DNA of 36,747 nt, from NCBI GenBank assembly GCA_030533385.1, contig JAUNJG010000016.1:1-36747 (forward strand), written 5' to 3'. Positions 18,553 to 20,718 of the stretch are shown here, piece by piece. The DNA is from Eubacteriales bacterium (GTDB taxonomy: Bacteria; Bacillota; Clostridia; Lachnospirales; Lachnospiraceae). The translations under genes were made by a program, and so were the position numbers. The notes beneath the pieces were generated by a model. That model was given only the letters and a program-made list of their open reading frames with translations. It was not told the DNA's origin and did no database searches. Within the stretch, counting starts at the first letter, position 1. Each line of letters starts with the position of its first letter.

Positions 18553-19533
18553 ATGAAACGAAAACATAAGATGGCCTGCGCATGGCTGATGGTCTTCCTT
18601 ATGCTCACCGGCATCGCAGGATGTACAAATAATCCTCTGGAGACGAAGGAGACTTACGCTTCTTATTACCAGCAAAAAAAGCAGCAGGAACAGCAGGAAT
18701 TAAAAGGAATGGCGGAGAATCTGGCTGTCATCGGAAGGGAAGAGCAGGATAGTCCCGGCTACTTTAGTGAAGATTACGCCGATTTGCTCATCAATGACAC
18801 GACAGATGAGGTGGTACAGTCCTACCATTGCTTTGAAAAAGTATATCCTGCCAGCATCACGAAGATTATGACGGCGCTGCTCGTTTTGGAACACGGCAAT
18901 TTTGATGATAAGATCACGTTGCAGCGTGATACCGTGCTGACGGAAGATGGTGCGGTGGTGAGTACTCTGTCAAAGGGAGATACGGTGTCAGTGGATGATT
19001 TGTTTCACACGCTGCTGATCAAGTCCGCCAACGATTGTGCTGTGATATTGGCGGAATATATTGCCGGGAGCGAGGAAGCGTTTGTGGACATGATGAATCA
19101 AAAGGCGAAAGAGCTGGGTGCGACGCACACACATTTTGTCAATCCTCATGGTCTTCATGACGAAAATCACTATACGACTGCCTATGATTTATATTTGATA
19201 TTCAAAGAGGTAGTAAAATATGACGCTTTTGTCAATGCGGTGTCTATGAAGGACTACACGATGACGTATGTAACCTCCGGGGGCAGGGAGGTTAGTGAGT
19301 ATATGCAAAGCACGAACCACTATCTTCTCAATGAGTACCCGGTTCCGGAGGGGGTAACCATGTACGGAGGAAAAACAGGGACGACTTCCATCGCCCGATC
19401 TTGTCTGATGGTCATGACAGAAAATGAGCAGGGAGACCGTTTTTTTTCCGTGGTGCTGGGGGCGGAAGGGCAAGATAAGCTTTACAGTTCCATGACGCAG
19501 CTGTTGGAAAAGGTGGCGTCAGGGCAGCCGTAA
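18553..19533 (+). CDS. dacA: Lipoprotein D-alanyl-D-alanine carboxypeptidase
   Basis: This is a class C low-molecular-weight PBP that trims the terminal D-Ala of peptidoglycan stem peptides. The catalytic motifs are Ser101-Ile-Thr-Lys104, Ser158-Ala-Asn160 and Lys274-Thr-Gly276. The signal peptide ends in a lipobox (GIAGC, Cys24), so it is probably held outside the membrane by a lipid. The chain ends about 50 residues after KTG and lacks the C-terminal beta domain and amphipathic helix that anchor PBP5-type enzymes. The lipid anchor probably replaces them. DacA is a functional label; other family names are possible. The structured repeat array begins 12 nt after the stop. Confidence 0.9.
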   Translation: MKRKHKMACAWLMVFLMLTGIAGCTNNPLETKETYASYYQQKKQQEQQELKGMAENLAVIGREEQDSPGYFSEDYADLLINDTTDEVVQSYHCFEKVYPASITKIMTALLVLEHGNFDDKITLQRDTVLTEDGAVVSTLSKGDTVSVDDLFHTLLIKSANDCAVILAEYIAGSEEAFVDMMNQKAKELGATHTHFVNPHGLHDENHYTTAYDLYLIFKEVVKYDAFVNAVSMKDYTMTYVTSGGREVSEYMQSTNHYLLNEYPVPEGVTMYGGKTGTTSIARSCLMVMTENEQGDRFFSVVLGAEGQDKLYSSMTQLLEKVASGQP

Positions 19534-19575
19534 GTGGGAGCTGTTCCTCCTGCAAGCTTGCTTGCGTCGGGTGTT

Positions 19576-19716
19576 GTCTATAGTCAGGCGCATGGCTGGG
19601 TGGTAAGGAAGTGACGATTCAGCCATAACATCTCGGGTTTGCAGCTGACGCTGCTGGCGCTGCTGACGCAGCGAAACCCTCGATTAGGGCGAAACGCCCT
19701 ATGCCTGCCAATAGAC
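19576..19716 (-). ncRNA. Core copy 1 of structured repeat (candidate RNA, - strand)
   Basis: Pairings: P1 GTCTAT (19576-19581) with ATAGAC (19711-19716) and CAGG (19585-19588) with CCTG (19704-19707); P2 ATGGCTG (19592-19598) with CAGCCAT (19620-19626); P3 GGGTTT (19635-19640) with AAACCC (19674-19679); P3a GCAGC-TGAC-GCTGC (19641-19654); P3b CGCTGC-TGAC-GCAGCG (19658-19673); P4 AGGGCG-AAA-CGCCCT (19686-19700). The strand is inferred from the substitutions in copies 2 and 3. Transcription is not shown. Confidence 0.45.
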
Positions 19717-19752
19717 TTTCCCCCTCCTGCAAGCTTGCTTGCGTTGGGTGTT

Positions 19753-19893
19753 GTCTATAGTCAGGCGCATGGCTGGGTGGTAAGAAAGTGACGATTCAGC
19801 CATAACATCTCGGGTTTGCAGCTGACGCTGCTGGCACTGCTGACGCAGCGAAACCCTCGATTAGGACGAAACGCCCTATGCCTGCCAATAGAC
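19753..19893 (-). ncRNA. Core copy 2 of structured repeat
   Basis: It has three differences from copy 1: one in the P2 loop (G to A), one in P3b (CACTGC instead of CGCTGC), and one in P4 (AGGACG instead of AGGGCG). On the + strand the two stem changes create A-C mismatches; on the - strand they become G-U pairs. Confidence 0.45.
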
Positions 19894-19930
19894 TTCCCCC
19901 CCTCCTGCAAGTCTGCTTGCGTCGGGTGTT

Positions 19931-20071
19931 GTCTATAGTCAGGCGCATGGCTGGGTGGTAAGGAAGTGACGATTCAGCCATAACATCTCGGGTTTGCAGC
20001 TGACGCTGCTGGCGCTACTGACGCAGCGAAACCCTCGATTAGGGCGAAACGCCCTATGCCTGCCGATAGAC
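19931..20071 (-). ncRNA. Core copy 3 of structured repeat
   Basis: It has two differences from copy 1: P3b reads CGCTAC (again A-C on the + strand, G-U on the - strand), and one change lies in the P1 internal loop (CCA to CCG). All other stems match. Confidence 0.45.
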
Positions 20072-20107
20072 TTCCCCCTTCCTGCAAGTCTGCTTGCGTC
20101 GGGTGTT

Positions 20108-20130
20108 GTCTATAGTCAGGCGCATGGCTG
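20108..20130. repeat. Broken copy 4 of the repeat core
   Basis: Only the P1 left arm and the first P2 arm (ATGGCTG, 20124-20130) remain. The following bases AATCGT (20131-20136) are the reverse complement of the ACGATT that precedes CAGCCAT in full copies, so the sequence appears to switch strand at the P2 stem. Confidence 0.7.
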
Positions 20131-20167
20131 AATCGTTATAAAAAGTTTTAATTTTACAAATTAGTTG

Positions 20168-20196
20168 TTGTGATTTTGTGCAACATGAACTATAAT
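20168..20196 (+). promoter_or_regulatory. Sigma-A promoter of the small P-loop gene
   Basis: TTGTGA at 20168-20173, a 17 nt spacer, then a perfect TATAAT at 20191-20196. The start would be near 20203, giving a leader of about 100 nt with a small CCGG/CCGG hairpin (near 20240-20256). Transcription therefore restarts after the repeat array. Confidence 0.7.
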
Positions 20197-20301: not shown

Positions 20302-20718
20302 ATGATTGAAATTATTGCAGGACTGAAAGGACACGGTAAAACGAAGCTTCTTATACAGAAAGTCAATGATGATATTAAATTGACGAAGGGAACGATTGTA
20401 TATCTTGATAAAAATAACAAGCATATGTATGAGTTGAGCAATCAGATTCGTCTTATCGTGGTACCTGATTTTAATATTGAAAATACGGATATGTTCATAG
20501 GTTTCATCGCCGGAATCTTATCCCAGGATCATGATTTGGACAAGGTATATCTGGATAGCTTTATGACGACGGCCTGCGTGGATGGTAACCTTGACTATGC
20601 GATTAGCAAGCTGAACGTTCTTTCAGAGCGCTATGACGTAGATTTTGTTATCAGTGCTTCTATAGATAAAGACGATTTGTCCGAAGAGGTACAAAAATAC
20701 ATATCCGTTGCAGTGTAA
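20302..20718 (+). CDS. Small P-loop protein of unknown function
   Basis: I do not recognise a characterised family for this 138-residue protein. It starts with a Walker A-like loop, GLKGHGKTK (residues 7-15), and has a hydrophobic strand ending in Asp, KVYLDSFM, that could be Walker B. The chain then ends about 55 residues later, so it is far shorter than most P-loop ATPases and lacks an obvious extra domain. Similar short proteins in Lachnospiraceae have, to my memory, been labelled PilT-like, which I would not trust. It has a strong AAAGGAGG site, its own promoter, and a possible terminator after it, so it looks like a single-gene unit. Confidence 0.75.
   Translation: MIEIIAGLKGHGKTKLLIQKVNDDIKLTKGTIVYLDKNNKHMYELSNQIRLIVVPDFNIENTDMFIGFIAGILSQDHDLDKVYLDSFMTTACVDGNLDYAISKLNVLSERYDVDFVISASIDKDDLSEEVQKYISVAV

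Follow-up and report, generated by a model that had tools for sequence, protein, structure and literature searches.

Bacterial MITEs, non-autonomous DNA transposons, are described in excerpts of PMC10969869 as having inverted ends, short target duplications, a stable stem-loop and no coding capacity. The BOX elements of Streptococcus pneumoniae, according to excerpts of PMC3049150, are dispersed and structured, and parts of them (the boxB modules) occur in tandem. IS66 makes 8-bp repeats and has ends starting with GTAAGCG, as given in part of PMC11946415. Among catalogued RNAs is the Clostridiales-1 RNA (Rfam RF01699), which the paper describing it (PMC2864571, in the portion dealing with it) classes as probably an RNA.

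Here we analysed a window of 36,747 nucleotides, the whole of contig JAUNJG010000016.1 from an Eubacteriales bacterium of the Lachnospiraceae (GCA_030533385.1), whose genome (G000) comprises 2.7 Mb in 174 contigs. The window carries a tandem array of an element which has the MITE features listed above. Unlike MITEs in general, as far as the excerpts of PMC10969869 describe them, the element keeps one multi-branched layout in its interior, with compensatory changes across genera, and it forms tandem arrays in several species. Like BOX it is dispersed, structured and repeated in tandem; BOX repeats boxB modules whereas here the whole element is repeated, a comparison made by description, not by sequence, with the excerpts of PMC3049150. 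Titles and abstract starts in the open-licence PMC literature gave no description of this element.

Structure of the tandem array

The initial annotation placed a tandem array at 19546-20130, and this is real: TRF found a period of 177 with 3.3 copies and 96% matches. It had divided the repeat into a 141-bp core and spacers of 36-37 bp. When the true phase was set by comparison with other copies of G000, the unit proved instead to be a whole minus-strand element of 172-173 bp with an inverted repeat at each end, and what had been taken for a "spacer" forms the distal portion of one of its hairpins. The intact end of the array reaches 20138, its last 8 bases lying beyond the coordinates first given. 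As defined by TRF, phasing and matches to R1, a covariance model built from 13 copies, the whole array (19546..20138, minus strand) consists of three full copies and a fourth that is truncated.

Read on the minus strand, each unit extends from TAACGATTCAGCCAT through to ATGGCTGAATCGTTA or a variant of it, that is, from inverted end to inverted end. The two inverted ends form an outer stem, which encloses hairpin A, a long one, the short hairpin B and a three-way branch, C. In copy 3 the left terminal inverted repeat TAACGATTCAGCCAT is at 20124..20138 and the right one, ATGGCTGAATCGTCA, at 19967..19981, both on the minus strand like the parts between them. The predicted fold places hairpin A at 20058..20121, with the former "spacer" at its tip, hairpin B (TAGGGCGTTTCGCCCTA) at 20040..20056 and branch C at 19985..20039. 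Branch C comprises ATC-GA...GA-GAT and two small hairpins, and the former motif may form tandem G-A pairs in this predicted fold.

R1 matched the minus strand at 19610-19785, 19787-19963 and 19965-20140, corresponding to copy 1 (19612..19783, 151.4 bits), copy 2 (19789..19961, 145.1 bits) and copy 3 (19967..20138, 170.9 bits). In the correct phase the three full copies differ pairwise by 7, 10 and 11 positions over 172-173 aligned columns. The truncated fourth copy (19546..19606, minus strand), delimited by phasing and sequence, retains a left inverted repeat and the first part of hairpin A, and lies 12 bases from the stop codon of a carboxypeptidase gene. A degenerate left end, TTACCACCCAGCCAT, is common to copies 1 and 2 and the truncated copy; only copy 3, the outermost, has this end intact.

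The array stands between two genes of the plus strand, a D-alanyl-D-alanine carboxypeptidase gene (Peptidase_S11 by Pfam, 18553..19533) and a gene for a conserved 138-aa protein (20302..20718), which has no Pfam match and which the genus search found in 23 of the 24 genomes, the own one among them. Upstream of the latter, by eye, is its likely promoter, TTGTGA-17-TATAAT (20168..20196, plus strand); similar sequence was seen by eye at the same place in 15 relatives inspected, which lack the array. The R1 search found no element at this site in the fetched loci of 22 of 22 relatives. Within the 24-genome genus sample, the insertion in the window is special to its own lineage. It offers no comparison of target duplications because its far end is truncated. 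A Pfam scan of the five flanking ORFs showed no transposase, in agreement with the initial annotation. The window has no Rfam match at the gathering score either, in keeping with the earlier description of the unit as one of unknown family.

Distribution of the element

First noticed at this one locus, the element has homologues widely elsewhere. In G000 there are 34 blastn matches, and R1 gave 45 rows, 10 of which are by our own count second-strand or overlapping rows, leaving 35 places. R1 matches were found in 10 of 24 genus genomes and, with one genome per genus and stricter filters, in 56 of 299 family genomes, while plain blastn found matches in only 3 of 61 relatives, the own genome being included in each count. 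Genomes of other genera can be rich in the element (R1 rows, second-strand rows included: G114, 43; G076, 54; G085, 40). The end sequence AACNRTTCAGCCATG, with at most one mismatch, occurred 23, 40, 13, 10 and 15 times in G000, G008, G022, G013 and G020, and a control pattern 0, 0, 1, 0 and 1 times.

Tandem copies occur at several further sites of G000 (C90, C115, C103, C143, C172), in G008 C1 (3 copies) and in G022 C21 (2 copies). At one such place, a flank on one side like CTTTAACACT(G/A)AAAAGCGTTGACAC is common to G000 C115 (three copies and a partial one), G008 C1 (three copies) and G022 C19 (one copy and a remnant). The other flank is shared with G008 and G022 by G013 C282 (one copy and a partial one), which runs off its contig. 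Judged from these flanks, species differ in their number of copies at what seems to be a single place, and slippage or unequal exchange would be the simplest cause of the differences. Since some sites are occupied in several species, copies of the element are old at these sites.

Searches with the window copy gave no match in plasmids or in phages, and neither did one search of each with a relative. A 19-base pattern of the ends, an exact pattern detecting near-consensus copies only, found two stretches in genome contigs (a set which may omit records near the own genome), neither of them inside an element and together at about chance level by our rough estimate, and none in viral contigs. With 16-base end patterns, 10, 16 and 20 stretches were obtained in viral contigs.

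Target duplications and assignment

In G114, G076 and G085, near-identical copies occur at unrelated sites, and many of them have 8-bp direct repeats immediately outside GTAAC...GTTAC. We tested 67 elements from hand-picked loci, 28-202 bp in length, in which both ends were found. The flanks matched at 7 or more of 8 bases in 30 of them, and perfectly in 19; one of the 67 was scored 0 in this count although its flanks match at 8/8. When flanks were paired at random, a mean of 0.83 elements and a maximum of 5 reached at least 7/8 in 1000 shuffles. The length is fixed: perfect repeats were of 8 bp in 19 elements and of 7 bp in 2, and none were of 5, 6, 9, 10 or 11 bp.

Matches of at least 7/8 were seen in 17 of 28 elements of G114, 4 of 8 of G076 (all four perfect), 4 of 8 of G085, 3 of 16 of G008, G022 and G013 together (none perfect) and 2 of 7 of G000. 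The two in G000 are at C1 (8/8, AGAAGAAA) and C142 (7/8). The duplications have mostly decayed within the genus and the clear cases come from other genera; with so few flanks matching in genus copies, those of the window's own genus are therefore mostly older.

Elements of 28-44 bp in G114, with little beyond the two ends, carry perfect 8-bp duplications too. Because elements of this kind, which are little but ends, bear the duplications, movement probably does not require the interior in cis, as far as the flanks tell. The smallest is a near-perfect palindrome of 28 bp, GTAACAGTTCAGCCCGCTGAACTGTAAC (G114 L265:395-422), flanked by perfect 8-bp repeats GATAATTA, and it seems to be a very small transposed element.

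The element has terminal inverted repeats and a target-site duplication of fixed length, 8 bp, and it is short and dispersed with no transposase gene inside. It is very probably a MITE, its mobility being well supported. The initial annotation had listed a non-autonomous element among its suggestions, and the 8-bp duplications, the dispersed copies and the empty window site of relatives bear this out. What is found here is a structured, tandem-forming MITE family across part of one bacterial family.

The history of the array may be proposed as follows. In the full unit of about 172-175 bp, inverted ends of 17 bp (family form GTAACNRTTCAGCCATG) would pair as the outer stem and enclose hairpin A, hairpin B and branch C. 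A transposase acting in trans would move the element and leave the 8-bp duplication that is observed. In the window, the element would have inserted between the carboxypeptidase gene and the promoter of the next gene, and was then probably amplified in place to three-and-a-bit tandem copies by slippage or unequal crossing-over; amplification in place is suggested because the copies are near-identical and have the same degenerate internal ends. The interior may persist because it is functional in itself, as RNA or as single-stranded DNA, or may be preserved by hairpin-templated repair.

Candidate transposases

From the GTAA ends and the 8-bp duplication, an IS66-type enzyme would be the first suspect for moving the element. 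Such mobilisation is compatible with the MITE assignment, and we put its chances at somewhat less than even. The element shares both features with the IS66 family as described in part of PMC11946415, and two copies in G020 have GTAAGCGC ends together with 8/8 duplications. The resemblance of the ends stops at GTAA: those given for IS66 in the same portion of PMC11946415 are GTAAGCG/GTAAACGC, those of the element are GTAACNRTTCAGCC-like, and the element has no coding region. PF03050, moreover, had no match in G000, G013 or G076, though G076 has many copies of the element. Among the IS66 copies examined, none had the element's ends at its own end. The sequence GTAACAATTCAGCC beside an IS66 remnant in G114 had been considered as the end of that remnant; it was dropped when three relatives of the remnant (90-91% identity) showed GCGTTTAC, with the end GTAAACGC, after the gene, the tails of such relatives being visible for only part of 30 loci.

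A search for an autonomous partner, which covered parts of genomes, found no transposase with matching ends among the PF03050 copies examined, in 40 regions around ends in G085 and G114, or in viral contigs, where the end pairs given by the 16-base patterns were checked. End-like pairs 2708 bp apart in six viral contigs were considered as a transposon and rejected: their flanks match at only 2-3 of 8 bases, and the long ORFs of the three contigs inspected are the same two, which by eye resemble phage structural or packaging genes.

Conserved fold of the interior

As RNA, the properly phased copy 3 (19965-20140, minus strand) has a predicted folding energy of -86.6 kcal/mol and a z-score of -8.72; as DNA its z-score is -9.60, and in neither case was any of 200 shuffles as good. 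Folding is therefore far better than that of shuffled sequence. When the 177-nt unit was taken out of phase, its z-score was -2.30 for the plus strand, which 3 of 200 shuffles equalled, and -4.45 for the minus strand, which none of 200 did.

In alignment A1, of 13 copies, two-sided changes occur in 39 of 67 pairs and 85.9% of the cells pair (0 of 500 shuffles). In A3, of 45 copies from several genera, they occur in 59 of 67 pairs and in 547 cells, with 90.7% paired (0 of 500 shuffles); A2 and A3 were fitted to the model, A3 leans towards it, and the cells count sequences, not events. When partners in A3 were slid by 1-3 columns, at most 45.7% paired. Every helix of A1 and of A3 has two-sided changes.

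The unit might thus be read as a functional structured RNA present in several copies, like the Clostridiales-1 RNA, with mobility incidental or ancient. The conserved multi-branched fold with changes on both sides of every helix argues for this, as does the better folding of the sense strand than of the antisense strand in 18 of 23 elements. In the two small hairpins of branch C, many of the four-base loops have the form GNNA, not GNRA alone, so that they point to neither reading. The same covariation can be produced by DNA hairpins too. At an orthologous-looking site (G008 C17 12899 and G022 C32 103204), the two copies agree almost completely in their flanks and in hairpins B and C, while hairpin A has another sequence that still pairs. 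One-arm copying in a DNA hairpin, or exchange between copies, could give such a change of hairpin A without RNA function.

G-U pairs are few. In A3 they make up 98 of 2562 standard cells (3.8%) versus 53 C-A cells, or 61 versus 49 when the four GU-richest positions are left out. In a set of 23 elements there were 67 G-U versus 54 C-A overall, and 42 versus 43 without polymorphic pairs. The overall counts lean to G-U and the trimmed ones hardly do; since A2 and A3 are model-fitted, and since the predicted folds of RF01699 at 12 loci are similarly poor in G-U (24 of 719), the comparison decides nothing between RNA and DNA.

Among catalogued families RF01699 comes nearest, and the layout also resembles that of RF01699. 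By eye, both have an outer stem, a long first hairpin with a tip like GTGCTTGCAC or GCAAGCTTGC, and further hairpins with similar G-A motifs, and both are multi-copy, in places tandem, in the same genus. At the gathering score of 48 bits, RF01699 had no match in the window, and the best scores on element loci were 34.2, 32.4 and 27.7 bits on three elements, the 32.4-bit match lying partly in flanking sequence. Conversely, R1 run on 19 RF01699 loci (E <= 10) gave 20.9 bits at best (L082, E 0.00029) and two matches below 12 bits, and 14 RF01699 loci showed no excess of target duplications. With RF01699 scores below gathering level, 20.9 bits at best in the other direction and no such excess, membership of the element in RF01699 is not supported; a kinship between the two is possible.

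RF01699 is frequent in the genus: at E <= 0.01 it had matches in 21 of the 24 genomes, in 17 above the gathering score, and the four matches in G000 are all below it. Up to 26 RF01699 rows occur per genome, many below the gathering score and some in tandem (G005 C1 and 20 other genus genomes). Its best copies in G020, G008 and G022 have flanks in common, as if from one locus. Unlike the element, several RF01699 copies (L067, L068, L069, L071, L073 and L076) show by eye a hexamer resembling TATAAT a few bases before their 5' end, and this looks like the promoter of a true RNA. Beside an element of G008, a stretch (L035:1450-1499) aligns to the 3' hairpin of the Clostridiales-1 RNA.

Of the structured RNA suggested in the initial annotation, the fold and the covariation are real, and the step from these to RNA is weakened by the capacity of DNA hairpins to yield the same covariation. 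The 8-bp target duplications, the near-identical copies at unrelated sites, the elements that are almost ends only and the scarcity of G-U cells, especially without the GU-richest positions, make it unlikely that the unit is primarily such an RNA. The MITE assignment may also be combined with function, the element being a mobile vehicle for a functional nucleic-acid structure. Its ends would serve only to move it, and its interior would be a passenger, RNA or single-strand DNA, selected for a function of the host or the element and descended from, or convergent with, a Clostridiales-1-type RNA, with arrays arising when more dose is useful. We offer this as a tentative and rather improbable proposal.

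With matches in 56 of the 299 genera sampled from one bacterial family, the element represents an additional, structured family of MITEs, and its large fold has been conserved even though the ends seem to move on their own. It makes testable whether covariation in bacterial repeats reflects RNA function or DNA hairpin dynamics, and it suggests that other catalogued multi-copy "structured RNAs" should be checked for target duplications.

Genomic context of the copies

The initial annotation had also suggested a protein-binding array, and such an array, or one that regulates genes, might be retained because it lies near promoters, as it stands just upstream of a promoter-like sequence common to relatives. 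The absence of the element from this site in the fetched loci of all 22 relatives and the lack of a clear strand preference relative to neighbouring ORFs make this very unlikely. With ORFs taken from a simple scan and not from a gene caller, the counts were, for 38 genus contexts, -- 12, -+ 8, ++ 5, +- 2 and a missing side in 11, and, for 27 contexts of other genera, -- 10, ++ 8, -+ 6, +- 2 and a missing side in 1. A strand bias towards promoters was apparent in the genus copies and was given up when the recount with other genera did not support it. As for REP/BIME-type palindromes copied by a RAYT (Y1) transposase, the element is palindromic, dispersed and sometimes in arrays, and Y1_Tnp matches exist in G000 (3), G008 (2) and G020 (1), but Y1 enzymes to our knowledge make no target duplication, and the clear 8-bp duplications render this origin hardly credible.

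Length variants

The element occurs in several lengths. In viral contigs there are small elements with both end repeats, one of 80 bp with 8/8 flanks (L285:662-741) and two of 105 bp with 7/8 flanks (L281:4302-4406 and L283:1621-1725). At what seems to be one place in two species (G008:C17:153262 and G013:C21:1059), the element is full in one and internally deleted in the other, and the gene ending directly before it is presumably groEL, as it reads like this gene. G085 has a longer form of 202 bp (L198, L201, L204), which exceeds the 143-bp form by about 59 bp within branch C, and the length of the 202-bp form recurs in several further R1 rows.
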